A DNA stretch of 64,000 nucleotides, from contig NZ_JAAZQK010000006.1 in assembly GCF_012275445.1 (NCBI RefSeq), forward strand, positions 186,001-250,000. Reading direction: 5' to 3'. A program made the position numbers and the translations under genes. Origin of the DNA: Rhizobacter sp. SG703 (lineage in GTDB: Bacteria; Pseudomonadota; Gammaproteobacteria; Burkholderiales; Burkholderiaceae_C). A model generated the notes under the pieces. That model was not told the origin of the DNA. It saw nothing but the letters and a program-made list of their open reading frames with translations, and did no database searches. This document shows, one piece after another, positions 22,666 through 39,299 of the stretch (the stretch's first letter is position 1; the number at the start of each line of letters is the position of its first letter).

Positions 22666-25600
22666 TCACTCCCGCCACATGCGCCCAGCCCAATCCGAGA
22701 AGGTCTTCAAGCGCTGCGCCTCGGCCCCATGGTTGCGCGCCGACATCACGCTCCAGGTGATGTACTGCTCGCCGGTCCAGTCGACCCAGCCGCCGACCAG
22801 GTGCGGCTGCCCCTTCGCGTTCAGCGGCAGCGGCGTTCGCTTCGGATCCAGGCAGAAGCGGAAGCCCGACTTGATCTCCGGCTCGCTGCCGAACAACGCG
22901 TTCGGATCACACCTGCGCCACTGCTCGTAGGTGGTGTTCGCATACAGCGCGTTGTAGAGCGAGATCGAGCTGTTGACGAACATCAGGTGCAGCCCCGGCG
23001 TCACCGCGTCGAGCTGGCGGAAGCGCGATTTCTCCCAGTCGTCCGGCCCGCGGTCGACCACCTCGCCGACCCCCAGCTTGTGGATCGCGAGCGACGCGCG
23101 GCTCTGGTGGCCCTTGTTGCGGAACAGGTCGGTCGGCGCGGCCGGGTCCGGCTGGTTGAACGGCAGGTCGGTGTTGGCCAGTTGCGCAAGCTTCGTGCGG
23201 ACCTGGAAGTAGCGCGCCAGGTGCGAGGCCGACACCGCCGCCGGCGCCTTCGCGGTCATCAGGTCGTCGACCACCGCGGTCGTGAAGCCCATGTGGTACG
23301 GCCAGTCCATCGGCCCTTCGGACGCCCCCGGCCAACCCGGGTTCACCGTCATCTGCAGCTGGTACCACTGGTTCGTTCGGTAGAACGACACCAGCCGCGG
23401 CTCCCAAGAGAAGTAGTTCTCGCGCCCGTTGGCCGGCGCGAACAGCATGTGCGGCGCCATGTAGAACACGCTCGGCCAGCTGAATGGCCAGCCGCGCTTC
23501 TCGCCGATGCCGACCCACTGCCCGTTGGCGCCGCGCGAGCCGTGCAACCAGTCCTGCCGCCCTTCGAGGCCGTAGGTGTGGGCGAGCTCCCACTGTTTGA
23601 CACCCATCCAGCGGATCGCGCCGAACAGCGCGCGCTCGATGAAGGCCTCCTTCGTGAACGCCGCCGGCAGGTTGGCCGCGCTCGCGGTCTGTGCCGACAT
23701 CAGCGCCTGCAGCTTCCTGCCGCCCACTTCGCCGCCATACGGCTTCGACGGGTCGCCCGAAACGCGCGAGCCGCGGCCACCGCCGGCGAAGTCGATCGTC
23801 TTGCCGCCGACATCGTTGAGCCACGCCTGCGCACGCTCGCGCAGCTCGGGCGTCAGGTGGCTCCAGTCGCCATAGACGCCGTTCGGGTTCTGGTTGGCCT
23901 TCAGGAAGTCGCTGACGCGCTTGACGACCTTGATCGGGTTCGAGCCGTCGTCGCCCTGGGTCTCGAACAGGCCCTGCGCCTGGCCGGCCTCGGGCGCCCA
24001 GATGTCGAGCGGGCTCTCGATCGGCAGCCAGGCGCTCCAGTCCGGCAGCTGCAGCGGGATCGGCATCTCGCGGGTGTTCAGCACCTTGCCGGGACTGGGA
24101 TCCATCGCGGCATCGAGCTCGGCCTGCGTCACCGCGGCGGTGCTGGTCGCGGCCTTGCCGGTGAAGACGTTGACGAAGGACTTCGCATCCGGCAGCACCG
24201 CATCGAGGCCCGCGCCGGCCGCCCATTCGATGGTCGGTTTCGCATCCAGGCCCGGGCCCGGCTGGTACGGCGGATTCCACGGCGTGGCCTGCGCGACGTG
24301 CGGCACCTTGGCGTACAGCGCGGCACGCAGGTACGCGGCGATCTGCTTGCCTTGTGTTTCGCTCAGGCCATGGAAGCGCGAGCGCTGCACGATCGAGTTG
24401 TTCGAGAAGTTGAAGTACTGCAGGTCGCGGCCGTCGCTCGCATGGCACGACGAGCAGGCCGCGCGGATCTTCGCGTTGACGACCGGCGACTTCAGCAGCA
24501 GGTTCTGCGCATTCCACAAGGCCTTGCCCTGGTCGGCATCGGCGGTCCAGGTGCGGCCCGCTTCCTTCTCGGACTGGATGTCGGCCCACTGGCGCGGTTG
24601 CGCGGCCGTCAGGTTCCTGCCGGCGGCGTCCTGGACCTGCACATCGAGGATGCGGAAGCCGTTGGAACTGCCGTCGGTACCATTGAAGCGGAACTCGATG
24701 CGGTTGGTGGCCGGCAGCGCGACGAGGCGGGCCCGCGCGGTCGCATCCAGCGGCACGCGGAAGCGGATGGTCAGCAGCCCGCCATTGACGCCGCCATGCG
24801 CGCGCTCGACTTCGTCGAGCTGCACCGCGCCGTCGCTGATGTCGATCCACGGCGCGGTGCCGCCGTTCGCTCCGCCGACGACGCGTAGGCTGCCGGCGAT
24901 CTTCGTCAGCGGCTTGGCCAGCGCCTCGAACTCCGGCGAGTTGTAGAAGCCGCAGCGGTGGCAGCGCACCACCAGCTGGCTCGCGGTGCCGAGGGCCGAC
25001 GCGTCGAGCGCGAGCTGCGCCGGCACGACCGTGGGCGCATCGGGCGCGCCGGCGCCGAGCACTTCGAGCGGCAGCGTCAGCGTGGGGACAGGCGACGGAG
25101 CGGGTCCGGGTGCGGGTGCCGGTGAAGGCGCCGGAGCGGGCGACGGCGCGGGGCTCGGGGCCGGCGCGGGACTCGGCGCGGGCGCGGGCGACGGTGCAGG
25201 AGAAGGCGCAGGCGCCGGGCTCGGGGCCGGGGCCGGGGCCGGGGCCGGAGAAGGAGCCGGCGCGGGGGCCGGTGCCGGGGCCTGCGCATCGGTCGCCAGC
25301 AACTGCCAGCGCTGGTTGTCGTTGTTGCCGCAGTCCCACTGCTGGATGCGTCCGCCGGCGACGGTGCTGAAGTCCTTCACGTCCAGGCACTTGCCGGTGT
25401 GCTTCGCCGCAATGCGAAGGCTGTCGCCGACCGGCATCACGCTGAAGCGCTGGTTGGCGCCGCCGCCGTAGCTCCACTGCTGGATCAGCGCGCCGTTGGC
25501 GGTCGAGATGTCGCTGACGTCCAGCCCGCGGCCGCTGTTGACGTTGACGAACGCATAGCTGCCGTCGTCGGCCGCGCGCACTTCGAAGCGCTGGCTCGCC

Positions 25601-26325
25601 GACGCGCTGCAGGCGGCCTGCAGCGTCTTCGCGCCGTCGGCGGCGGAACTTCCTTCGATGTCGAGGCACAGCTTCGATTGCAGTCCGCGCAGCGTGTACT
25701 GGCCGATCGCGAGCGCACCGCGCGCACTGCCGCTGCGCGGGAACAGCAGGAACTGCTGGGTCGCATCGGCCGTGCTGCAACCGGCCTGCTGCAGCTGCGC
25801 GCCGTCGGCGGTCGAGCGGTCGGCGATCGTCACGCACTTGCCGCTGGCCGCGCTGACGAAGCGGAAGCGGTTGCCCTGGGCGCGCCACGGGCGGAAGCGC
25901 TGCGCGTTGGTGTCGTTGTTGGTCCATTGGTGGAGGGCCGCGCCGTCGGCGCCCGAGCTGCCGGACAGGTCGAACACCTGGCTCGTGCCGGCGTTCACCA
26001 GCTTGACGTTGCCGCCGGCCTGGGTCGTCACATCGAAGGCCTGCGTCAGCGCATCGCCGCAGGTGGCCTGCTGGATGCGACCGCCATCGGGCGTCGACGG
26101 CACGGCATCGACGCACTTGCCGCTCTGTGCGTTGACGAGCACGTAGCGGCCGGGCGCGAGCGTCACTGCCGCATCGGCGACGGCCTCGGCCGTTTCACGG
26201 TTCAGCGCCGCATCGGGTGCCGGCCCCGCCGACGGATTGCCGCCGCCGCAGGCGGCCAGCAACATGGAGACGGCCAATGCGGCCGCGGTGGGCGTGGCGT
26301 GCAGCGTCGAATGAATGGGGCGCAT
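22666..26325 (-). CDS. Secreted lipoprotein with ricin-type lectin repeats and a cytochrome c motif
   Basis: A 1219-residue protein of unusual architecture. Residues 1-26 form a lipoprotein signal (LLAAC, Cys26). About 55-365 hold repeated ricin B-type (RICIN/CBM13) units, each with a GKCVD/GKCLD-like start and a Q-x-W-like end. About 347-412 are a Pro/Ala/Ser linker. A beta-rich region follows, with a CHRC pair. A single haem c site, C624-S-S-C627-H628, comes next, then about 590 residues I cannot assign. It probably binds a glycan or polymer at the cell surface and does redox chemistry. It lies 178 bases downstream of the PHB hydrolase genes on the same strand; membership in that unit is uncertain. 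Confidence 0.75.
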   Translation of the reverse strand: MRPIHSTLHATPTAAALAVSMLLAACGGGNPSAGPAPDAALNRETAEAVADAAVTLAPGRYVLVNAQSGKCVDAVPSTPDGGRIQQATCGDALTQAFDVTTQAGGNVKLVNAGTSQVFDLSGSSGADGAALHQWTNNDTNAQRFRPWRAQGNRFRFVSAASGKCVTIADRSTADGAQLQQAGCSTADATQQFLLFPRSGSARGALAIGQYTLRGLQSKLCLDIEGSSAADGAKTLQAACSASASQRFEVRAADDGSYAFVNVNSGRGLDVSDISTANGALIQQWSYGGGANQRFSVMPVGDSLRIAAKHTGKCLDVKDFSTVAGGRIQQWDCGNNDNQRWQLLATDAQAPAPAPAPAPSPAPAPAPAPSPAPAPSPAPSPAPAPSPAPAPSPAPSPAPAPSPAPAPGPAPSPVPTLTLPLEVLGAGAPDAPTVVPAQLALDASALGTASQLVVRCHRCGFYNSPEFEALAKPLTKIAGSLRVVGGANGGTAPWIDISDGAVQLDEVERAHGGVNGGLLTIRFRVPLDATARARLVALPATNRIEFRFNGTDGSSNGFRILDVQVQDAAGRNLTAAQPRQWADIQSEKEAGRTWTADADQGKALWNAQNLLLKSPVVNAKIRAACSSCHASDGRDLQYFNFSNNSIVQRSRFHGLSETQGKQIAAYLRAALYAKVPHVAQATPWNPPYQPGPGLDAKPTIEWAAGAGLDAVLPDAKSFVNVFTGKAATSTAAVTQAELDAAMDPSPGKVLNTREMPIPLQLPDWSAWLPIESPLDIWAPEAGQAQGLFETQGDDGSNPIKVVKRVSDFLKANQNPNGVYGDWSHLTPELRERAQAWLNDVGGKTIDFAGGGRGSRVSGDPSKPYGGEVGGRKLQALMSAQTASAANLPAAFTKEAFIERALFGAIRWMGVKQWELAHTYGLEGRQDWLHGSRGANGQWVGIGEKRGWPFSWPSVFYMAPHMLFAPANGRENYFSWEPRLVSFYRTNQWYQLQMTVNPGWPGASEGPMDWPYHMGFTTAVVDDLMTAKAPAAVSASHLARYFQVRTKLAQLANTDLPFNQPDPAAPTDLFRNKGHQSRASLAIHKLGVGEVVDRGPDDWEKSRFRQLDAVTPGLHLMFVNSSISLYNALYANTTYEQWRRCDPNALFGSEPEIKSGFRFCLDPKRTPLPLNAKGQPHLVGGWVDWTGEQYITWSVMSARNHGAEAQRLKTFSDWAGRMWRE
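25088..25285. repeat. Imperfect hexanucleotide repeat encoding the Pro/Ala linker
   Basis: About 200 bases of imperfect GC-rich repeats (unit near GGCGCCGGAGCG on the plus strand) that encode PAPAPSPAPAP-type sequence in the ricin/cytochrome lipoprotein. It separates the lectin half from the haem half. Such tracts are prone to length change by slippage in multiples of six. Confidence 0.75.
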
Positions 26326-26470
26326 GGATGTCCGTCTCCGATTCTTTTTGCAACGGCGGATCAACGGATCCGACGCGCGAGTGAAACCGGTTCCATTCTT
26401 TCGCGCCGCCGTCCCGGCAGGCATCGCAATTGGAAAGCGTGTGAAAGCAGGCGTAAGACCTTGGCCTCGC

Positions 26471-26505
26471 AGCCCGGCTGCCGATCCCGGATCGGCAGCC
26501 GGGCT
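26471..26505 (-). repeat. Perfect 17-bp inverted repeat at an alpha/beta hydrolase stop codon (family A)
   Basis: Arms 26471-26487 and 26489-26505 are exact complements around a single central base. The right arm, read on the minus strand, begins AGCCCGG and the hydrolase TAG stop (26504-26506) overlaps it. The same TAGCCCGG junction ends two other genes (36051 and 37833). No T-run follows on the minus strand, so it is better called an intercistronic palindromic element than a proven terminator. Confidence 0.75.
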
Positions 26506-27346
26506 ACGGCGCCATCAGGAACCGCTCCACCACCGTCAACTGCTCCGGCACGTTCAATGCCGGCGCATGCCCGCAGCCCGGCACCGTCACCACCTGCGCA
26601 CGCGGCCCGCGCTGGCGCATCTGCTCGGCGACCTCCGGCAGCAGCAGGTCCGAGTTCTCGCCGCGCAAGCACAGCACGGGCAAGCTCAGCGTGTCCCACG
26701 CGTCCCACAGCCCGTAGTCGTCGTCGTGGTGGGTGAACTGCATCACCATCGCCGGGTCGTAGTGCGGCGTCACGCGGCCGTCGGGCAGGCGGCGTGTCGA
26801 GGTCTCGGCCAGGCGCCGCCACTGGCCGTCGCTCAGCCAGCCATAGGGTTGGTAGATCTTGCGGAAATACTGCTCCAGCTCGCTCACCGTCTCGAACGCC
26901 GCCGGCCGGCCCGCATAGCCGCGGATGCGCGCGAGCGCCGCCTCGGCCAGCTCCGGCCCGTTGTCGTTCAGCACCAGCTTGCGGATGCGGCCGCGCAACG
27001 GGCCCGCCGCGGCCCGCGTGCCGATCGCGCCGCCCATCGATGTGCCCAGCCAATGGAACTCGTGCAGCCCGAGCTGGTCGACCAGCGCGACTGCCTGCTG
27101 CACATAGAACGCCAGGCAGTACTCGCGTTCCGGATCGCGGCTCCATTCGCTCAAGCCGCGGCCCAGCGTGTCCGGGCAGATCACCCGGAAATGCGGCGAC
27201 AGGTGCGCCGCCACCTCGTCCATGTCGCGGCAGGTGCGCGCGAGGCCGTGCCACGCGATCACCGTCTCGGCCCGGCCCGCGCCCCACTCGGTGTAGTGCA
27301 GCTCGCGGCCTTCGCAGGCCAGGTAGTGCGACGTGAACGAGACCAC
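26504..27346 (-). CDS. Alpha/beta hydrolase
   Basis: A 280-residue cytosolic alpha/beta hydrolase. It shows WHGLART (oxyanion region), the nucleophile elbow GTSMGG (Ser103), a helical lid after residue 130, LCLRGENSDLL for the acid and GCGHAP for the catalytic His. It starts at a GTG (27344-27346), 18 bases after the 3HB-oligomer hydrolase gene, so the two are probably co-transcribed. By context it could hydrolyse 3-hydroxybutyrate dimers or a related ester; sequence alone does not fix a substrate. Its TAG stop lies in a palindromic repeat. Confidence 0.85.
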   Translation of the reverse strand: MVSFTSHYLACEGRELHYTEWGAGRAETVIAWHGLARTCRDMDEVAAHLSPHFRVICPDTLGRGLSEWSRDPEREYCLAFYVQQAVALVDQLGLHEFHWLGTSMGGAIGTRAAAGPLRGRIRKLVLNDNGPELAEAALARIRGYAGRPAAFETVSELEQYFRKIYQPYGWLSDGQWRRLAETSTRRLPDGRVTPHYDPAMVMQFTHHDDDYGLWDAWDTLSLPVLCLRGENSDLLLPEVAEQMRQRGPRAQVVTVPGCGHAPALNVPEQLTVVERFLMAP

Positions 27347-27364
27347 GGCTCTTCGGCTTGAGCG

Positions 27365-29560
27365 TCAGTTCGGGATCGCGATCGACGTGCCGGCGAAGCC
27401 GATCTGGTCGGCCACCAGCGGCGCGGCGCTGAGCGCCGGCACGTTGGCCGCGGTGATCGCCGGCGCCGCGCCCGGCAGCCCGCCTCGCGGCGTCGCACGC
27501 ACCACCTGGCTCGGCGGCAGCGCGGCGCCGGTCTTCAGGTGCGCATACATCGCGTCCATCGCCCGGTTGAAGTACACATGCAGCGGCACGAAGCGGGTGT
27601 CGAAGCCGCTCAGCGACAGGAAGCCGTCGAAGTGCTGCGCGTTCGTCACCTCGATGTAGCCCAGCTTGCTCGCCGCCTCCACCGTCTTGTTGAACGCCAC
27701 ATAGGCCCGCGCGTTGTTGTTGACCGGCACCAGCGCATCGCTGCGGCCGGCCACCACCAGCACCGGCTTCGCGCGCAGGTTGCCGTTGACCAGAACCTCG
27801 GCCATGCCGGCCTGCACCGCGGCGGCCTGCGCGGCGGTCGGGCGTGTCGAACTGGCGGTGGCCGTCAGCGCCGCGCCGGTCTCGTCGACGCCGGTCACCA
27901 GCGCGCGCTGGCACAGCGCGTTGTCGAGCCCGAAATCCTGCACGCCGGTCGACACCGACACCGCGGCCGCCCACTGCTTCGCGCCGCCGACGGAATCGTT
28001 GTAGACCACGCTGGCCGGCGAGCCGTTGGCGGTGCCGTTGCCGATCGCGAAGCTCTGCGCCTTGCTCGCCGCCAGCGCCGCGATCGGGTTGCCGCTCGCA
28101 TCCACCTGCGCGAAGCTGGTGCCGCAGACGTTGTCGAGCACCGAGAAGCGGCCATACATCACCGGGTACATCGCCGACAGGATCGGCCCGTTGCCGAGCG
28201 CGTAGTGCGCGTTGTGCATCGTGTCGTTGTCGGTCGTCCAGCCGTAGGCGCGCAGCTTGTTCAGCGCGTCCAGCGACTGCGCCGCGGTGTCGGCGCCGGT
28301 CACCAGGCCCTTCGCCGCGAGCCCGGTACAGCGGGCGGTGGCGCGCGCCGTCTGCGCCGTCAACCCGATGTAGTTGAAGAACGAGGTCTCGGTCAGCGCC
28401 GCCTCCGCCGCCAGCGCGGCACAGGGCTGGTAGAGGTTGCCGAAGGTCGTGAAGTCGCCCAGCGTCTTGCCATACGCCACCACCGCCGCCCCGCCGAACT
28501 GGATGCCGTAGCCGCTGCGCGTCGGCATCTCGGTCACCGGCTCGCCGGCCACCACGCCGTCGATCAGGCCGGTGCTGTCGGCCTCGGCCGCGCGGATCAC
28601 CGCGGCACCGCCGTTCGACACCGAACCGGCGATCACGACGGTGTTGGCGGCCGTGAACGGCACCGGCGCCGCCGCGTTGCCATAGCGGTCGTTCAGCGCA
28701 TACAGCGCATACGCGGCCGCGGCCAGCGTGTCGTTGCCCCAGTCCTTCTCCGGGTTCAGCTGCGAGTGCACCTGCTTCAGCGCGAGCCGGTTCGGGGTCA
28801 GCGCGTTGTAGGTCGCGCGTGCGGCATCGCTCACCGCAGCCGCGAAGAAGCTCAGCGCGCCGGCCGCAGCGCGCGTCGCGCGCGTGCCGTCGATGCGGTT
28901 CACCGTGTCGTCGGTCAGGTCGTACAGGCCCATGCCCTTGCCGGCGTCGGTCAGCGCGACCGCGCAGCCGTGCTTGAGACCCCACTCGGCCGAGGTGGCG
29001 ATGGCGCCGTACACGCCGCGCGAGCCCGACGACGGGCCCAGCACGAGACACGGCGCGCTCTGGTTGAAGCTGTCGGGGATCTGCACCGCGATCGCGACCC
29101 GCTTGGTGCCGGCCGCGTTGTCGAGCACCGCGACGTACTCGCGGCCGGGCACCAGGCCTTCGCTCGTCGTCACGCTGCCGGCCGCATCGACGTTCGGGCC
29201 GTACAGCGTGCCGTAGCCGCCGGCGGCCGTCACGTCGACCAGCCCGCGGTAGTTGCTGAACAGCGCGTTGCGGCGCAGTTCGGCGGCCGTCGGGTTCAAC
29301 GGGTCGGCATACGCAGGCGCGGCCGCGGCCAGCCCGGTCTTGCCGAGGCCGCCGGTCAGCAGGTCCTGCGTGGCCGCGGTGCTGCCGCTGCCGGCGGTGG
29401 TGGCCGGGTAGGTGGTCACCGTGAGCTGGCTGACGTTCGCCGGCAGCGCGTTGACCGGCAGCGGCGTGTCGTCGTCGCTGCCGCAGCCGGCCAGCGCGAG
29501 CGTCGCCAGGCCGAGTGCGGTGAACGTGAACGAGGTGGGCGAACGGAGTCTGGACGTCAT
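27365..29560 (-). CDS. D-(-)-3-hydroxybutyrate oligomer hydrolase
   Basis: Hydrolyses 3HB oligomers released from poly-3-hydroxybutyrate to monomers (EC 3.1.1.22). The 731-residue precursor has a lipoprotein-like signal (LALAGC, Cys26) and long family blocks: YRGLVDVTAAGGYGTLYGPNV, VLGPSSGSRGVYGAI and the nucleophile motif SVSNGG (Ser about 315), then LVVAGRSDALVPVNNNARAY and the late NAQHFDGF carrying the likely His. Its ATG (29558-29560) overlaps the upstream permease TGA as ATGA, tying it to the LIV-type transporter. The lipobox suggests an envelope location, although some relatives are cytosolic or secreted. Confidence 0.93.
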   Translation of the reverse strand: MTSRLRSPTSFTFTALGLATLALAGCGSDDDTPLPVNALPANVSQLTVTTYPATTAGSGSTAATQDLLTGGLGKTGLAAAAPAYADPLNPTAAELRRNALFSNYRGLVDVTAAGGYGTLYGPNVDAAGSVTTSEGLVPGREYVAVLDNAAGTKRVAIAVQIPDSFNQSAPCLVLGPSSGSRGVYGAIATSAEWGLKHGCAVALTDAGKGMGLYDLTDDTVNRIDGTRATRAAAGALSFFAAAVSDAARATYNALTPNRLALKQVHSQLNPEKDWGNDTLAAAAYALYALNDRYGNAAAPVPFTAANTVVIAGSVSNGGAAVIRAAEADSTGLIDGVVAGEPVTEMPTRSGYGIQFGGAAVVAYGKTLGDFTTFGNLYQPCAALAAEAALTETSFFNYIGLTAQTARATARCTGLAAKGLVTGADTAAQSLDALNKLRAYGWTTDNDTMHNAHYALGNGPILSAMYPVMYGRFSVLDNVCGTSFAQVDASGNPIAALAASKAQSFAIGNGTANGSPASVVYNDSVGGAKQWAAAVSVSTGVQDFGLDNALCQRALVTGVDETGAALTATASSTRPTAAQAAAVQAGMAEVLVNGNLRAKPVLVVAGRSDALVPVNNNARAYVAFNKTVEAASKLGYIEVTNAQHFDGFLSLSGFDTRFVPLHVYFNRAMDAMYAHLKTGAALPPSQVVRATPRGGLPGAAPAITAANVPALSAAPLVADQIGFAGTSIAIPN

Positions 29561-30615
29561 GGTGTCTCCTTCTGTTGTGGGACGGGCTGCCTCGACCGCC
29601 GCGCGCGCAGCCGTCCCACGATCCCGTTCGGGAAGTGGTAGACCGACAGCACGAAGAGGACGCCGAGCCACAGCAGCCAGCGCTCGGGCGAGATCAGGGT
29701 CGACAGCAGCGGCACGCCGCCGACCAGCGGCGCGGCCAGCGCCATCAGGTTCTGCAGCTGGCTCTGCGCCAGCACGAACAGCAGGCTGCCGACGACGGCG
29801 CCGTACACCGTGCCCATGCCGCCGATCACGACGATCAGCAGCACGTCGAGCATGATCTCGAAGCTCAGCGAGGTGTCCGGCCCGTTGTAGCGCAGCCAGA
29901 GCGCGAGCAGGCAGCCGGCCAACGTCGCGAACAGCGCCGACAGCACGTTCGACAGCGTGCGGTACACCACCGTGCGGTAGCCGATGGCCTCGGCGCGGAA
30001 GTCGTTCTCGCGGATCGCCTGCAGCACGCGGCCGAACGGCGAGTTGACGATGCGCAGCATCGCGAGCACCAGCGCGGTGGCACAGGCGAACAACAGGTAG
30101 TACGCAACCCGGCGGTCGCTCAAGGCCTCGGGCAGCCGGAAGCTCAGCCCGTCTTCGCCGCCGGTCCAGTCCGACAACTGCGACGCGAGCGTCAGGAAGG
30201 CCGAGGCCACCGCCAGCGTGATCATCGCGAAGAAGATCGCCTTCACGCGCAGGCTGAACAACCCGATCAGCAGCGACAGCAGCAGCGAGACCGCGAGCGC
30301 CGCCGCGACGCCCACCGCCAGCGCGAGCCAGCCCGGACCGAGCCGCGTGCTGGCGATCGCGATGCCGTAGGCGCCGATGCCGAAGAACATCGTGTGCGCG
30401 AAGCTGACGATGCCGGCGTAGCCGAGCAGCAGGTCGAAGCTCGCGACCAGCACGATGAAGACCATCACCTTGGCCGCGACGTTCATCGCCTGCGTGCCGG
30501 GGAACACGAACGGCGTCAGCGCGAGGCCGAGCAGCACCGCGACCAGCACCAATGCGAGCGCGCGGCTGCGCGGCAGGTCATGCGACAGCAGGCGATCGAC
30601 GAGGCGGGCGATCAT
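29557..30615 (-). CDS. LIV-type ABC transporter permease (LivM-like)
   Basis: A 352-residue inner-membrane permease of the branched-chain amino acid type. It has about ten hydrophobic segments and the conserved SFDLLLGYAGIVSFAHTMFFGIGAY block near residue 60, EAIGYRTVVYRTLSNVLSA, and GGMGTVYGAVVGSLLF. It follows the LivH-like gene after seven bases and overlaps the 3HB-oligomer hydrolase start. LIV-type systems also import amides, urea, aromatic acids and other carboxylates, so the name does not fix the substrate; the neighbours point to 3-hydroxybutyrate or its oligomers. Confidence 0.92.
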   Translation of the reverse strand: MIARLVDRLLSHDLPRSRALALVLVAVLLGLALTPFVFPGTQAMNVAAKVMVFIVLVASFDLLLGYAGIVSFAHTMFFGIGAYGIAIASTRLGPGWLALAVGVAAALAVSLLLSLLIGLFSLRVKAIFFAMITLAVASAFLTLASQLSDWTGGEDGLSFRLPEALSDRRVAYYLLFACATALVLAMLRIVNSPFGRVLQAIRENDFRAEAIGYRTVVYRTLSNVLSALFATLAGCLLALWLRYNGPDTSLSFEIMLDVLLIVVIGGMGTVYGAVVGSLLFVLAQSQLQNLMALAAPLVGGVPLLSTLISPERWLLWLGVLFVLSVYHFPNGIVGRLRARRSRQPVPQQKETP

Positions 30616-30622
30616 CGGGAAC

Positions 30623-31614
30623 TCACCGGGTGGTCACAGCATAGAGCCCGCGCGGACGCCACAGCAGCACCGCGACCATCAGCCCGATGTTCGAGAACAG
30701 CGCGACCTTCGGCCACAGGAAGCCGGTGTAGTTGGCGAGCAGCCCGACCAGCAGCGCGCCGACGAAGCAGCCGAGCGTCGAGCCGAGCCCGCCGATGATG
30801 ATCACGATGAAGATCAGCACGTTCAGCTGCGCGCCGATCTGCGGCACCACGCCCTGCTGGTACAGCGCCCACAGCGCGCCGCCGAGGCCGGCCAGCGCCG
30901 AGCCGGCGACGAACACGCCGACGAACAGCGTGCGCACCGGGTAGCCGAGGCTCTCGACCATCTCGCGGTCCTGCACGCCGGCGCGCACCAGCAGGCCGAG
31001 CCGCGTGCGGTTCAGCGTGTAAAGCATCGCGGCCAGCATGACCGCGCCGAGCCCGGTGGCGAGCAGCCGGAATTTCTCGACCGACGCATCGCCGAGCGCC
31101 AGCACGCCGCGCAGCGCCTGCGGCAGCGACAGTGGGACCAGCGCCGGGCCCCAGATCGCCTTGATCAGTTCTTCGCCGATGATCATGCCGCCCATCGTGA
31201 TCAGGATCTGCTTCAGGTGCTGGCCGTAGACCGGTCGCACCAGCACGCGCTCGAAGGCCCAGCCGAGCGCGGCGGCCAGCGCCATCGCGGCGAGCATCGC
31301 CGGGAACAGCGCGGCCAGGTTGAGCCACAGGCTGTCGGCGCCGGTCCAGTCGGCCAGCCCGCCGAGCACGCTGGTCGCGATGAAGGCGCCGAACGCGATG
31401 AACACACCGTGGCCGAAGTTCAGCACGTCCATCAGCCCGAACACCAGCGTCAGGCCGGACGCGACGATGAAGACGATCATCCCCATCGCAAGGCCGGCGA
31501 CGGTCAGCGTCAGCCAGGTCGACGACGAGCCGACCAGCGGCCACGCGGCGAGCGCGAGCAGCGGCACCAGCGCGATCGGCAGCAGGTCGAATGACGCGCG
31601 GGGCAACGTGGCGC

Positions 31615-31618
<4 letters not shown>
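30623..31618 (-). CDS. LIV-type ABC transporter permease (LivH-like)
   Basis: A 331-residue membrane permease, partner of the LivM-like protein. It shows FGLMDVLNFGHGVFIAFGAF, QILITMGGMIIGEELIKAIWG and IIIGGLGSTLGCFVGALLVG, the LivH signatures. The first 30 residues form a hydrophobic segment. Its ATG (31616-31618) overlaps the LivF stop as ATGA. The longer frame upstream is a shadow of the ATPase gene. Confidence 0.92.
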
Positions 31619-32339
<721 letters not shown>

Positions 32340-32343
<4 letters not shown>

Positions 32344-33083
32344 GCCGCGAGCCCCAGGTAGGCCTGCTGCACGATCGGCGAGGCGATGACGATGCCGGGC
32401 TCGCCGTCGGCGACGAGCTGGCCGTTGTGCAGCACGACGATGCGGTCGGCCAGTTCGCGCACCACGTCCATCTTGTGCTCGACCAGCAGGATCGCGCAGT
32501 CGCGCCGGGCCTTCAGCGCGCGGATCAGGTCCAGCACCACCGGTACCTCGTCGGCGCTCATGCCGGCTGTCGGCTCGTCGAACATGAAGACCTGCGGTTC
32601 GAGCGCCATCAGCATCGCGACCTCCAGCTTGCGCTGGTCGCCATGCGGCAAGTTGCCGGCGAGCCGGTCGGCCTGGCCGGCCAGGCGCACCTGCTCGAGC
32701 AAGGCCTGCGTGCGGTCGAGCGCATCGCGGCGGTCGCACCACACCGACCACAGGTTCAGCCCGAAGCGCGCGCGAGACTGCACGACCAGCCGCACGTTCT
32801 CGCGCACCGGCAAGCCAGGAAACAGCTGCGTCAGCTGGAAGGCCCGGCCGATGCCGCGGTGCGTGCGCGCCGCCGGGCCTTCGGCGGTGATGTCGACGCC
32901 GTGCAGCCGCACGCGGCCGGACGTCGCGCGCAACTGGCCGGAGATCAGGTTGAACCAGGTCGTCTTGCCGGCACCGTTCGGGCCGACGATGGCCGTCAGC
33001 GTGCCGGCTTCGAACGCGCAGCTGACGCGGTCGATCGCGACGTGGCCGCCGAAGCGGATGGTGAGATCGTCGGTTTCAAGCAT
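32340..33083 (-). CDS. LIV-type ABC transporter ATPase (LivG-like)
   Basis: A 247-residue ATPase pairing with the LivF-like protein. Walker A GPNGAGKTT, a LivG-type GIGRAFQLTQLFPGLPVRENV segment, a degenerate signature LPHGDQRKLEVAML, Walker B VFMFDEPTAGMSADE and the H-loop LLVEHKMDVV are visible. It begins 12 bases after the PHB depolymerase stop, so the depolymerase and the transporter are very probably on one mRNA. That spacing is the strongest local evidence linking transport to polymer degradation. Confidence 0.94.
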
Positions 33084-33095
33084 CGGGGACGACGG

Positions 33096-34532
33096 TCAAG
33101 AGCAGGTCCCGATCACGTAGAAGTTCGTGCCGGTCATCTTCAGCGTCGTCGTGACGAACAGGTTCCACAGCCCCATGTTCTGGTTCGACCCGTTGGCCAG
33201 CGCATAGCCGCCCACCACATGCGCCCGGTTCGCCGCGACGTGGGCATAGTTGCTCGCGGTGGTGCAGGTGGCCGCCGGCGGCGCGCCGGTGGTGGTGCCG
33301 GTGGCCGGGGCGGACGACGGCCCTTCGGCACCGCCGGCGTCGACCGCCTTCACCGTCCACGCGTAGGTGGTGCCGGCGGCGAGCCCGGTGTCGGTGTAGC
33401 TGGTGCCGGCCACCAGGCTCGCGTTGACCTGGTTGCCGCCGCGGTACACGTTGTAGCCGCTCGCACCGGCCACGCCGCCCCAGCTGATCACCATGCTGCT
33501 GGCGGTCGCGCCCGAGGTGCCGACGCCAGTGGGCGCCGGCAGCCCCGAAGGCGCCGAGCCGCTGGCCAGCGTCGTCATCATCGCGCGCACCGCGGCCATC
33601 TGCGGGCCGGATTTCTTCGCGTAGTTCGCGTTGTCGTAGCCCCACCAGTCCCAGCAGCTGTTGGTGGCCTGCGTGCTGGTCTGCGGGTACAGCACGACGA
33701 TGCCGTTGGTGTCGGCCCAGCGGTTGTAGCCGGTGTTGCGCACGTATTGCTGGCCGACCAGCGCGGTGTTCTGCTGGCAGCCGTGGAACACCACGTGCAG
33801 CTTGCACACCGCGCCCGCGCTGCAGCTTTGCGGCACATAGACCCAGCCGGTGGCGGCCATGCCGTGGCCGGAGACGAACGCGCCCTGGTCGAACTCGGTG
33901 AAGGTGCCCGACAGCGTGCCGTTGTTGCGCGCGTTCAGCTGGCCGTGCAGCTGCTTCAGGATCTCGCCGGCGAGGTCGAAATCGCAGTCGTTGATGTACG
34001 GCGACGCGGTGCTGCCGCAGCTGCTGCCGTAGTCGTCGGTGATCATCGCGTGGCCCGACGCGATCGTGTTCTTGTAGACGATGTTCGCGGCCGGGACGAA
34101 GCCCTGGTAGTAGGTCTTCAGGTCGTTCATCACCGCGGGCTTCACGGTGTTGTCCGAGGTGCCGGAGTAGAGGTAGACCTTCGACGTGGCGAGGTTCGCG
34201 ACCGGGTCGATCAGGCCGCTCGTCGCCCAGCTGTTGGTGGTACTGGCGAGACCGCTGACCGGGATCGTGCTGGCGTGCGTCATGCAGCGGCCGGTCGCGT
34301 TGACGATCGATCCTTCGGCACAGTAGTACGGCCCGCCGGCCACGATGCCGGCGCCGCGCTTGAAGGTGGCCGAGTACGCGACGTGCATCTGCACCGCCAT
34401 GAAGCCACCGGACGACAGGCCGGACACGCTGACCTCGGCGGGGTCGATCTGCAGCTGAGGGAGCGGAGTGGCCTGAGTGGGTGACGCTGCCGCGGTGATG
34501 CTTGCAAGAACCCAACGAAAGATGCTTTTCAT
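33096..34532 (-). CDS. Extracellular poly(3-hydroxybutyrate) depolymerase
   Basis: Breaks PHB outside the cell into oligomers and monomers. The 478-residue precursor has a signal peptide (about 1-21), a catalytic domain with the lipase box GLSSGG very near the N-terminus (Ser40), as in type 2 catalytic domains, then LHVVFHGCQQN and the C-W-D-W-W-G-Y segment, a fibronectin type III linker (about 325-410) and a short C-terminal domain that may bind polymer (about 415-478). AGGAGAC lies before the ATG at 34530-34532. It sits between the binding-protein gene and livG-like gene of a LIV-type transporter. Confidence 0.92.
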   Translation of the reverse strand: MKSIFRWVLASITAAASPTQATPLPQLQIDPAEVSVSGLSSGGFMAVQMHVAYSATFKRGAGIVAGGPYYCAEGSIVNATGRCMTHASTIPVSGLASTTNSWATSGLIDPVANLATSKVYLYSGTSDNTVKPAVMNDLKTYYQGFVPAANIVYKNTIASGHAMITDDYGSSCGSTASPYINDCDFDLAGEILKQLHGQLNARNNGTLSGTFTEFDQGAFVSGHGMAATGWVYVPQSCSAGAVCKLHVVFHGCQQNTALVGQQYVRNTGYNRWADTNGIVVLYPQTSTQATNSCWDWWGYDNANYAKKSGPQMAAVRAMMTTLASGSAPSGLPAPTGVGTSGATASSMVISWGGVAGASGYNVYRGGNQVNASLVAGTSYTDTGLAAGTTYAWTVKAVDAGGAEGPSSAPATGTTTGAPPAATCTTASNYAHVAANRAHVVGGYALANGSNQNMGLWNLFVTTTLKMTGTNFYVIGTCS

Positions 34533-34562
34533 TTGTCCTGTCTCCTTGTATTGCTTGCATTG

Positions 34563-34628
34563 CCGTTCACCCTGAGCCTGTCGAAGGACGGGCTCAGGGA
34601 AGGGCTTCGACAAGCTCAGCCCGAACGG
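34563..34628. repeat. Imperfect 24-bp inverted repeat (dispersed element, family C)
   Basis: Left arm 34563-34586 and right arm 34605-34628 are complementary except at four positions, with an 18-base loop. Arm core is CTGAGC(C/T)TGTCGAAG. A single arm of the same element occurs at 54652-54675 and a degenerate double at 8590-8626. It lies in the 114-base gap between the binding-protein gene and the PHB depolymerase gene and could form a stable mRNA hairpin there. Similar elements are common in Burkholderiales, from memory. Confidence 0.75.
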
Positions 34629-34646
34629 ACGAAGCGAGGCATCGGC

Positions 34647-35852
34647 TCAACGCTTGTTGCGGATCGGCACGTTCATCTCGTCGGGCCTGATCTCGCGCAC
34701 CAGCTCCGGCACGCCCCACGCGAATGCCGGGTCGGCCTTGATGCGGAAGTGGTACATGCTCTGCATCGCCTGGTGGTCCTCCTTGCGGAACACCATGCGG
34801 CCCTTCGGCGTCTCGAAGGCCATGCCTTCCATCGCGGCGATGAGCTTGTCGGTGGCGGTCGCGCCCTGCGTCTTCTTCAGCGCCTCGACGACCGCGATCG
34901 CCGCGCTCATGCCGCCGGCGGTGAAGAAGTCCGGCGGCGCCTTGAACTGCTTGTAGTGGTTCGCGACCAGCCATTCGTTGACCGGGTTCTTCGGGATGCC
35001 GAAGTAGTAGTACGTCGCGCCTTCCATGCCGGGGAAGTTCCTGTACGCGGCCATCGCGGGCAGGATGTTGCCGCCGGTCGCGATCTCGATGCCGTGGCGC
35101 TTCAGGTCCAGGTCGGCGATCTTGAACGGGTTGCCGGCACCGGCCCACAGGATCCAGATGATCTTGCGGCCGGGCTGATCCTTCAGCTTGTCGATCAGCC
35201 GCTGCGCGCCGGCGGTGAAATCGGTGGTGCTGGTCGGCAGGTACTCGCCGTCGATCAGCTTCGCCTTCTTGATCGACTCCTTGAAGGCCTTCACGCCGTC
35301 GCGGCCGAATGCATAGTCCTGCGCCAGCGTCGTGATCGTGACGCCGGGCTTGTCGAGCGCCACCGCATTGGCGATCGCATCCTGCGAGCTGTTGCGGCCG
35401 GTGCGGAAGATGTAGCGGTTCCACTTGTCGCCGGTGATCGAATCGGCGACCGCCGGCTCGACCAGCAGCACCTTCCTGTATTCCTCGGCCACCGGCAGCA
35501 GCGCGAGCGCGACGCCCGACGACGACGGGCCGACCGCGATGTCGGCATGGTCGTCGCCATAGGCCGCGGCGAGCTGGCTCTTGCCGATGTCGGGCTTGCC
35601 TTGGTCGTCGCGTTCGATCACCACGAGCTTGCGGCCGGCCACCGTCATCGTGCCGCCGGTCGCGTAGTCGAGCCCCATCATGAAGCCGGTCTGCGTCTGC
35701 TTGCCGTAGGCCTCCAGCGCGCCGGTCTTGCTGTAGACGTGGGCGATGCGGATGTCCTGGGCCTGCGCCGGCGCGCCGGTGCCGGCGAAGCCAAGGCCGG
35801 CCACGGCCAAGCAGGCCAGCAGCGCCATCGGGCGCTGTCGGGTCGCGGTCAT
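34647..35852 (-). CDS. LIV-type periplasmic substrate-binding protein
   Basis: A 401-residue precursor of the Peripla_BP_6 family with a cleavable signal peptide (about 1-31, ending APAQAQ) and the mature start DIRIAHVYSKTGALEAYGKQ. Conserved GLDYATGG, VIERDDQGKPD, VGPSSSGVALA and TTLAQDYAFGRDG follow. It is the binding component for the LIV-type transporter encoded downstream, with the PHB depolymerase gene between. The ATG (35850-35852) has AGGAGA upstream and is preceded by a consensus sigma-54 promoter at 35901-35915. The ligand is unknown; 3-hydroxybutyrate or short oligomers is my inference. Confidence 0.9.
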   Translation of the reverse strand: MTATRQRPMALLACLAVAGLGFAGTGAPAQAQDIRIAHVYSKTGALEAYGKQTQTGFMMGLDYATGGTMTVAGRKLVVIERDDQGKPDIGKSQLAAAYGDDHADIAVGPSSSGVALALLPVAEEYRKVLLVEPAVADSITGDKWNRYIFRTGRNSSQDAIANAVALDKPGVTITTLAQDYAFGRDGVKAFKESIKKAKLIDGEYLPTSTTDFTAGAQRLIDKLKDQPGRKIIWILWAGAGNPFKIADLDLKRHGIEIATGGNILPAMAAYRNFPGMEGATYYYFGIPKNPVNEWLVANHYKQFKAPPDFFTAGGMSAAIAVVEALKKTQGATATDKLIAAMEGMAFETPKGRMVFRKEDHQAMQSMYHFRIKADPAFAWGVPELVREIRPDEMNVPIRNKR

Positions 35853-35900
35853 GCTGTCTCCTGTTTTATTGGAATGGTGATGCGCGTGCCCCCGTACAGC

Positions 35901-35915
35901 GCAAGCGACGTGCCA
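35901..35915 (-). promoter_or_regulatory. Consensus sigma-54 (-24/-12) promoter
   Basis: The minus strand reads TGGCACG-TCGC-TTGC, an exact match to the consensus TGGCACG-N4-TTGC, with the required ten bases between GG and GC. Transcription would start near 35890, giving a leader of about 40 bases to the binding-protein ATG at 35852. A sigma-54 activator gene lies upstream on the same strand (37833-39299). Confidence 0.85.
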
Positions 35916-36019: not shown

Positions 36020-36053
36020 CCGGATTCCAACCACGTGCCTGGATTCCGGGCTA
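36020..36053 (-). repeat. Palindromic element at the lytic transglycosylase stop (family A)
   Basis: Arms CCGGATTCC (36020-36028) and GGATTCCGG (36041-36049) pair with one mismatch. On the minus strand the gene's TAG stop (36051-36053) leads straight into TAGCCCGG, the junction also seen at 26504 and 37833. Confidence 0.6.
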
Positions 36054-36950
36054 CAGGCGGCGCATCAGGGCGAGTTGCGGCGACGGGTCGGTGACCGTGG
36101 TGTCGAACGGGTGCGTCAGCATGCGCGACGACTTCAGGATGCGGCTGACGTAGCCCAGTGTCTCGGCATACGGCGGCACGCCGCGGTAGCGGTTCACCGC
36201 GCCTTCGCCGGCGTTGTAGGCGGCGGCCACCAGCGTCACGTCGCCGCGGTAGTAGGCGAGCAGCCAGCGGATGTACGCGAGCCCGCCGCGGATGTTCTGC
36301 GCCGGGTCGAACGGCCGCTTCACGTTGAAGCGGGCCGCGGTCTCCGGGATCAGTTGCATCAGGCCCTGCGCGTTCTTCGGCGACTGCGCGACCACGTCGA
36401 AATTCGACTCGACCTGGATGAACGCGAGTGCGAGCTGCGGGTCGACGCGGTACTCCGGCGCGATGGTCTTCACCAGGTCGACGATGTACTTCGGGCCGTT
36501 GCTGCGCAGCTCGGCGGCAGGCGCCGCGACGGCGGGCGTGGCCTGCACCGCGGCCGCCACCACCGGCGCGGGCGGGCGCATGCAATCGGGCAGGTCGGGG
36601 CCGGGCTGGCCGACGCGCTCCAGCATGCGCACCGCCTGCGGCAGGCCCTGCTCGGCGGCGGCGTGGAAGAAGAACGACGCGGTCGCGTCGTTGCGCTCGA
36701 TGCCGCGGCCGTTGGCGTACATCCACGCGAGGTTGTATTGCGATTCGGCATCGCCCTGGCGCGCGGCCTGGCAGTAGAGCTGCGCGGCGCGCGCCGGATC
36801 GCGCGGCACGCCTTCGCCGTTCTCGTAGGCGATGGCCTCCTCGCGCGCCAGGCGGACCAGCAGGTCATCCGACGCGGGCGCCTCGGCCTGCGCCCTCGCC
36901 GTGCCGACGAGGCCACAGAGCAGAAACAGCAGGAGGACGGGCAGGCGCAT
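36051..36950 (-). CDS. Secreted lytic transglycosylase with Sel1-like repeats
   Basis: A 299-residue periplasmic protein that probably cleaves peptidoglycan glycan strands. Signal peptide 1-20 (ending TARA), Sel1-like repeats at about 36-115 (AYENGEGVPRDPARAAQLY, WMYANGRGIERNDATA), a short Pro/Ala linker and a C-terminal SLT domain: ESNFD (catalytic Glu181), NAQGLMQLIPETAARF, DPAQNIRGGLAYI and AAYNAGEGAV. It lies between the sigma-54 activator region and the PHB/LIV operon on the same strand but ends 135 bases before the sigma-54 promoter, so it is likely separate. Its TAG stop is inside a palindromic element. Confidence 0.93.
   Translation of the reverse strand: MRLPVLLLFLLCGLVGTARAQAEAPASDDLLVRLAREEAIAYENGEGVPRDPARAAQLYCQAARQGDAESQYNLAWMYANGRGIERNDATASFFFHAAAEQGLPQAVRMLERVGQPGPDLPDCMRPPAPVVAAAVQATPAVAAPAAELRSNGPKYIVDLVKTIAPEYRVDPQLALAFIQVESNFDVVAQSPKNAQGLMQLIPETAARFNVKRPFDPAQNIRGGLAYIRWLLAYYRGDVTLVAAAYNAGEGAVNRYRGVPPYAETLGYVSRILKSSRMLTHPFDTTVTDPSPQLALMRRL

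Positions 36951-37832: not shown

Positions 37833-37836
<4 letters not shown>
37778..37836 (-). repeat. Double-hairpin palindromic element at the sigma-54 activator stop (family A)
   Basis: Outer arms GTAGCCCGGA (37778-37787) and TCCGGGCTAC (37827-37836) are exact complements. Inside are two smaller stems, CCCGGATG/CATCCGGG (37782-37799) and CCCGGA/TCCGGG. On the minus strand the activator gene's TAG (37833-37835) is the TAG of TAGCCCGG. This is the fullest copy of the family in the window. Confidence 0.8.

Positions 37837-39299
<1,463 letters not shown>

Follow-up and report, generated by a model that had tools for sequence, protein, structure and literature searches.

What does an ATP-binding cassette (ABC) importer labelled as an amino-acid transporter carry when its genes are interleaved with genes for the digestion of poly-3-hydroxybutyrate (PHB)? 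The question is raised by a gene cluster in Rhizobacter sp. SG703, within a 64-kb stretch of contig NZ_JAAZQK010000006.1 (the window, whose coordinates are used throughout). A first-pass annotation had proposed that this importer, which is of the LIV type, takes up 3-hydroxybutyrate (3HB) or its oligomers rather than branched-chain amino acids. The part of that proposal that ties the transporter to PHB and 3HB stands, on the evidence of gene adjacency and of changes at particular gene slots, whereas the ligand specificity is a prediction from sequence. That an importer so labelled shares clusters with PHB-digestion genes in many soil and water bacteria suggests that it takes up PHB breakdown products. 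In the reading that we favour, with a probability of roughly 0.78, the cluster would encode a sigma-54-controlled LIV-type importer of PHB and 3HB hydrolysis products, namely (R)-3HB and probably short oligomers.

The order first described, namely solute-binding protein (SBP), PHB depolymerase (PhaZ), LivG, LivF, LivH, LivM, 3HB-oligomer hydrolase (3HBOH) and alpha/beta hydrolase, on the minus strand between 26504 and 35852, proved correct on re-reading, as did the 12 bases between the PhaZ stop and livG. A sigma-54 activator and a transglycosylase precede these genes on the same strand. In the order of transcription the features are:

37833..39299, minus: sigma-54-dependent activator, AAA+, with Fis-type helix-turn-helix and weak PAS_4; probable cluster regulator (Pfam)
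36051..36950, minus: lytic transglycosylase with SLT domain and Sel1 repeats, between regulator and SBP (Pfam SLT, Sel1)
35900..35915, minus: sigma-54 (-24/-12) promoter match TGGCACGTCGCTTGCG, 47 nucleotides (nt) upstream of the SBP ATG (strict motif)
34647..35852, minus: LIV-type SBP, 401 amino acids, homologous to RPA4397 (PDB 3n0x), with a signal peptide by eye (PF13458, Peripla_BP_6, 167 bits)
34533..34646, minus: SBP-PhaZ intergenic region with a palindrome resembling repetitive extragenic palindromes (REP-like) (fold against shuffles)
33096..34532, minus: secreted type-2 short-chain polyhydroxyalkanoate (PHA; here PHB) depolymerase PhaZ, with fibronectin III domain (NF050059, e_dPHAscl_type2, 403.5 bits, cut-off 280)
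32340..33083, minus: LivG-type ATPase (PF00005; best NCBIfam match UrtD/LivG, under equivalog cut-offs)
31615..32343, minus: LivF-type ATPase (PF00005; best NCBIfam match UrtE/LivF, under cut-offs)
30623..31618, minus: LivH-type permease (PF02653, 112 bits)
29557..30615, minus: LivM-type permease (PF02653, 123 bits)
27365..29560, minus: 3HBOH, predicted lipoprotein (PF10605, 929 bits)
26504..27346, minus: alpha/beta hydrolase, no apparent signal peptide (by eye), candidate intracellular 3HB-oligomer hydrolase (PF00561, 73.9 bits)

The junctions from the SBP to the last hydrolase measure 114, 12, -4, -4, 7, -4 and 18 bases. Three of them are ATGA overlaps (LivG-LivF, LivF-LivH and LivM-3HBOH), not four as had been counted; LivH and LivM are separated by a 7-base gap.

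From gene order, gene families, conserved adjacency and a promoter motif we infer a substrate, compartments, catalytic roles and a mode of regulation, as follows. Secreted PhaZ would cut PHB extracellularly, and the lipoprotein 3HBOH would trim soluble oligomers outside the cytoplasm, at the envelope. The LIV-type SBP would capture (R)-3HB, probably short oligomers too, and LivHM together with LivGF would pump the captured products inward. Leftover dimers or oligomers would be split by the cytoplasmic alpha/beta hydrolase, and the 3HB would be oxidised by the dehydrogenase BdhA, which is coded elsewhere. Sigma-54 and the linked activator would drive transcription from before the SBP gene.

Conservation was followed in 200 genomes of the family to which the window's genome belongs. 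The SBP was found in 109 of them, 3HBOH in 60 and a type-2 depolymerase in 46 (one of these, G569, under the family cut-off); the depolymerase counts refer to type 2, type-1 enzymes being outside the search. Among genomes holding both genes, the SBP lies within 10 kb of 3HBOH in 33/43 and within 3 kb of PhaZ in 28/31, where chance would give about 0.6% per pair (15 kb on either side, or 30 kb out of a genome of 4.8 Mb). Second SBP copies (G520, G458, G565, G563) and 3HBOH fragments (G423, G495) are omitted from the list of SBP-enzyme pairs, and the genome counts are unaffected. The adjacency that the first-pass annotation wished to see searched for in other genomes is thus kept there, and relatives of the transporter do lie beside PHB genes, with repeated changes on the tree. 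The striking signal is position, rather than co-presence, and the cluster is more than a chance neighbourhood. At the cluster, the 109 SBP genomes divide into 16 with both enzymes, 17 with 3HBOH only, 12 with PhaZ only and 64 with neither. Because of these 64, the transporter probably has a role beyond the breakdown of PHB outside the cell; the same count, and the location of bdhA elsewhere, make the earlier description of a "complete degrade-import-hydrolyse module" too strong.

The positions that the enzymes occupy were compared in 80 named loci kept from at least 589 confirmed relatives, mostly from Burkholderiales genera or proteobacterial metagenome-assembled genomes. A complete SBP-G-F-H-M set is present in 71, the nine incomplete loci being excluded. 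PhaZ stands between the SBP and LivG in 24 of the 71, and 3HBOH within 4 kb after LivM in 30 of the 69 scored (L090 and L104 are unscored). In a phylogeny of the transporter proteins, built by a quick method (LG+G4) in which gains and losses are indistinguishable, the state changes at least 10 times for PhaZ (72 rows) and at least 11 times for 3HBOH (70 rows). The occupants vary as well. When 18 of the 30 cluster copies of 3HBOH were aligned, two shared 95% and 72% identity with that of the window, and the remaining 16 shared 47-53%. In the best tblastn segment the window PhaZ shares 66-73% with copies from Acidovorax and Variovorax and 54% with the copy in L112, although L112 is the nearer transporter relative. 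The enzymes in the two slots thus stem from different lineages. Companion genes were grouped as blastp clusters, one member of each being checked against Pfam; by this means the 3HBOH slot of two Ramlibacter loci (L073, L080) was seen to hold a COesterase bearing LAAC close to the N-terminus.

Farther afield, a phylum-wide sample gave the SBP in 23 of 398 genomes (24 matches). Twenty of the matches were read with their flanks, the window's own genome, G333, G365 and a second copy in G335 being left out. LivG-F-H-M follow the SBP in all 20; a same-strand regulator precedes it in 10, and an alpha/beta hydrolase follows LivM in 8. In 60 of the 80 named loci a regulator homologue shares the strand of the importer, and an alpha/beta hydrolase homologue follows LivM in 61 of the 71 complete loci, being the commonest esterase companion. 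These counts of companions make importer, regulator and hydrolase the usual core, to which the PHB enzymes look like plug-ins.

The regulator matches Sigma54_activat at 228.6 bits and HTH_8 over its cut-off, with PAS_4 at 21.8 against a cut-off of 23.1. The strict -24/-12 match before the SBP is the only one in the 64 kb on either strand. An activation domain for sigma-54 and a promoter motif for it at the supposed target are both present. The promoter comparison covered 77 of the 80 loci, three with less than 250 nt upstream being excluded. Of these 77 orthologous regions before the SBP, 49 contain the strict motif, which turns up in 4 of 5474 tiles taken from the rest of the loci; among the 28 regions that lack it, the regulator gene is visible in the stretch for 15 and not for 13. 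A looser scoring (71/77 upstream regions against 37/70 control windows, seven loci being without a control) was too lax and was superseded by the strict motif. In Rhizobacter sp. Root1238 (L056), a 97% copy of the regulator on G850:C34 would be about 10.4 kb from the SBP if both are on the same contig, with other genes between; the distance in the window is 2 kb.

The setting of distant regulator homologues also bears on the substrate. A class-level search at E<=1e-110 found the regulator in 5 of 274 genomes, including the window's own and one family member, and the remaining three supplied four matches (47-52% by tblastn) whose flanks were read. In L146 the homologue adjoins three genes of a tripartite ATP-independent periplasmic (TRAP) transporter (DctP, DctQ, DctM) along with a CoA-transferase that resembles FadX but scores under the cut-off of that model. 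L147 has the TRAP genes DctP and DctM beside it, together with BdhA (352 bits against a cut-off of 307) and a chemoreceptor; in L148 its neighbours are TRAP DctP and DctM. These three loci likely represent a second, TRAP-type 3HB uptake system. In Pseudomonas aeruginosa, 3HB use is controlled by the sigma-54 activator PA2005 (PMC13390443).

PhaZ has the type-2 short-chain-length PHA depolymerase domain over its cut-off, an S-D-H triad and, by eye, a signal peptide. Compared with 2d80, a PHB depolymerase of known structure, it gives E 1.8e-70, and the Ser, Asp and His of the triad align. The 3HBOH match extends over profile positions 2-688 of 688, and its N-terminus (...LALAGC) reads as a lipobox, a motif with counterparts in 27 of the 30 cluster 3HBOH copies. 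The sole 3HBOH match (E<=1e-30) and the sole type-2 depolymerase match (E<=1e-50) in the genome of the window both fall within the cluster. The predicted 3HBOH model (pLDDT 78.5) has as its best Foldseek match, a weak one, MHETase (E 3.7e-6, TM 0.29).

The alpha/beta hydrolase points to 3HB by another route. It is 40% identical to a paralogue in the same genome that is divergently transcribed from bdhA, and this BdhA, coded outside the cluster, is the only 3HB dehydrogenase of the genome over the TIGR01963 cut-off. Relatives of the paralogue (56-65% identical) adjoin an over-cut-off BdhA in all four genomes tried, those of Cupriavidus necator (L098), C. pinatubonensis (L108), V. paradoxus (L129) and A. 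delafieldii (L096). H16_A1334 of C. necator is a 3HB dehydrogenase. H16_A1335 is named as PhaY2, a 3HB-oligomer hydrolase (PMC3430594). The bdhA-linked paralogue is probably PhaY2, as judged from family and context. In 27 of the 71 complete loci the cluster hydrolase is kept although neither PhaZ nor 3HBOH is present. Since a signal-less hydrolase is the commonest esterase companion, even where the PHB enzymes are missing, import of dimers or short oligomers is favoured. Taken together, the adjacency, the repeated slot changes, the varied occupants, the regulator kin beside 3HB genes and the bdhA-linked hydrolase paralogue strongly support a tie of this transporter clade to PHB and 3HB degradation.

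What kind of importer is it? With a type I SBP, two BPD_transp_2 permeases and two ABC ATPases, it belongs to the LIV type (HAAT). All five proteins score far under the NCBIfam Liv cut-offs: 47.3 bits against 477 for the SBP, 68.1 against 379 for LivH, 72.4 against 366 for LivM, 186.1 against 362 for LivG and 166.2 against 441 for LivF. The nearest solved structures of the SBP are 3n0x and 3nnd from Rhodopseudomonas palustris (3n0x at E 5.9e-176, and also top in Foldseek with 68% identity), and the PDB title of 3n0x gives RPA4397 and calls it a branched-chain amino-acid transporter. Next in the fold search, among structures with a bound ligand, come 4ey3 and 4evq, titled as hydroxybenzoic acid complexes; urea-, amide- and leucine-binding proteins come lower down. 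The predicted SBP model is moderate (pLDDT 77) and gives no gain over the 3n0x crystal structure. The main text of the R. palustris ligand survey makes no mention of RPA4397; of 22 COG0683 targets with ligands unlike their annotation, that survey says, very few gave a shift with leucine, isoleucine, valine or short amides (PMC3223731). Among the open-licence papers searched, none named RPA4397 and none was relevant for 3n0x or 3nnd, and no ligand assignment for 3n0x turned up there.

The residue E226, the acidic LivJ position for the amino group of the ligand, was also considered. Its column is non-acidic in 19/19 members of the SBP family (I/L in one alignment, G/V in another). A search of the window's genome with the SBP gave 14 matches, the cluster SBP included, and among the 9 other LIV-type paralogues that were aligned, of 13, none has Glu at this column and one has Asp. 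With Glu missing from all nine controls, the loss of E226 does not discriminate; it separates the SBP only from LivJ/LivK, and it was dropped as strong evidence against an amino-acid ligand.

Four readings of the cargo have to be weighed. An ordinary branched-chain amino-acid importer sharing an operon with PHB genes by chance is very improbable. It has on its side a resemblance at the level of the family, Peripla_BP_6 and the LivJ/LivK fold being shared among many others; the conserved adjacency with its many changes on the tree, the distance from the Liv models (47 against 477 bits for the SBP) and, weakly, the non-acidic E226 position speak against it. A more serious contender is a general importer for short carboxylic acids, whether hydroxy, keto or branched, that are released from esters (other polyesters, cutin, hydroxyvalerate), to which PHB enzymes were added in some lineages. 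This would fit the 64 SBP genomes without a PHB gene at the cluster, the COesterase that replaces 3HBOH in L073 and L080, and the acyl-CoA ligase, enoyl-CoA hydratase and MaoC neighbours of distant loci. We consider it unlikely, given the type-2 depolymerase in 24/71 complete loci, the 3HBOH in 30/69 scored ones, and the settings of the hydrolase paralogue and of three of the four regulator homologues, which point to 3HB or related acids; it would overlap with the favoured reading if 3HB were among the substrates. A narrower possibility, with a chance somewhat below even, is that the importer carries only monomeric (R)-3HB, perhaps with acetoacetate, the oligomers being cut outside and the cytoplasmic hydrolase serving another role. 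It is a sub-case of the favoured reading, and the two probabilities overlap. A free acid as cargo is favoured by a CoA-transferase (Pfam CoA_trans in L045, with a homologue in L044, both of the same phylum but outside the class) between regulator and importer, and the AMP-ligase beside the importer in six Cupriavidus and Ralstonia loci (L092 tested) and the BdhA beside one regulator homologue (L147) agree with monomer uptake. Against it stand the signal-less hydrolase, present in 61/71 loci and kept in the 27 without PHB enzymes, and the bdhA-linked paralogue of that hydrolase. Import of 3HB oligomers as the main cargo is a tentative reading that falls just short of even odds. The cluster would then represent a widespread class of sigma-54-controlled ABC importers dedicated to such oligomers: ester-linked dimers or trimers would be brought in and their hydrolysis completed inside the cell, much as happens with maltodextrins and oligopeptides, and depolymerases and surface hydrolases would, with the same tentativeness, have been plugged in and out of fixed slots.

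Several observations weigh against the favoured reading of a PHB- and 3HB-linked importer. Besides the 64 of 109 genomes without either PHB gene at the cluster, co-occurrence with the SBP at the genome level is modest (Fisher p 0.002 for 3HBOH, 0.06 for PhaZ), and in the phylum-wide loci PhaZ and 3HBOH each occur in 3/20, none outside the order. The last of the four regulator homologues, in L149, has an AMP-ligase as its neighbour and no TRAP or 3HB genes. The ligase, MaoC and CoA-transferase neighbours would suit other short acids too, and the lack of Glu at the E226 column in the paralogues takes away an argument against amino acids. Lastly, ten loci lack the alpha/beta hydrolase: seven from Cupriavidus and Ralstonia, in which 3HBOH is present (six times along with an AMP-ligase) and the 6.1-6.3 kb after LivM contain no hydrolase of this kind, together with L066 (6.4 kb), L076 (4.3 kb) and L090, where the sequence ends; all but the last of these count against the reading.

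Other genes accompany the importer in particular lineages. Nine Acidovorax loci (L094, L096, L101, L103, L110, L118, L122, L124, L132; L103 Pfam-tested) have a second, different type I SBP between 3HBOH and the hydrolase, perhaps to supply the same permease with ligands of another size or class. In L085, L093 and L116 a further importer of the LIV type, with its own SBP and a LivG of roughly 40% identity, lies downstream of the alpha/beta hydrolase. Six Roseateles-like loci (L057, L060, L061, L065, L068, L072) have a chemoreceptor gene between regulator and SBP, with sCache_2 and MCP signal domains in the tested member (L065); chemotaxis toward PHB hydrolysis products is a possible function. 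The AMP-binding acyl-CoA ligase of Cupriavidus and Ralstonia (L092, L098, L100, L105, L109, L126) lies between LivM and 3HBOH, and its presence in stretches without the alpha/beta hydrolase suggests a route through 3HB-CoA.

Within the window, the SLT transglycosylase between regulator and SBP is kept in few relatives (4 of the 80 named loci, L056, L086, L097 and L112, and also L036) and probably stands outside the uptake function. The REP-like palindrome at 34533-34646 (CTTCGACAGGCTCAGG and its partner) has a fold z of -2.2, 4 of 200 shuffles folding equally well or better, and could give the SBP and PhaZ sides different expression. Downstream of the cluster, 22666-26424 (minus strand) encodes a predicted protein of 1252 amino acids whose lectin domains are ricin-type beta-trefoils (RicinB_lectin_2, 182 bits). 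A lipobox, a linker rich in Pro and a CxxCH motif can be read in it by eye.

PHB depolymerases have received much study, and in the open-licence literature the entry of their products into Gram-negative degraders is little characterised. No LIV-type importer for 3HB or its oligomers was found described in that literature (titles, abstract starts and some passages). If the favoured reading holds, a clade of "branched-chain amino acid" importers found in 109/200 family genomes would be relabelled, the crystal structure 3n0x would gain a testable class of ligands, and an uptake module would become available for engineered bioplastic degradation. We know of no earlier ABC importer for polyester oligomers; were oligomers the main cargo, this would be the first, already with a crystal structure in 3n0x.

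LIV-type importers for non-amino-acid substrates are already known. The aromatic-acid SBPs of R. palustris (RPA0668, RPA0985) and the urea transporter UrtABCDE have the same fold and five-part architecture as the window importer, which is accompanied instead by esterase and PHB genes. PA2005 of P. aeruginosa is, like the distant homologue of the window regulator that adjoins BdhA in L147, a sigma-54 activator tied to 3HB genes; in the window the promoter match precedes an ABC importer, and the likeness is one of family and setting. As for PhaY1 and PhaY2 of C. necator, 3HBOH adjoins this importer in Cupriavidus loci, the likeness again being drawn from family and context. A further parallel is offered by Ideonella sakaiensis, in which polyethylene terephthalate (PET) is broken down by PETase and MHETase and the terephthalate is taken up. 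There, as in the window cluster, a secreted polymer hydrolase is joined by a second esterase and a dedicated uptake system; with another polymer, another transporter and a weak structural match, the PET system is an analogy only.

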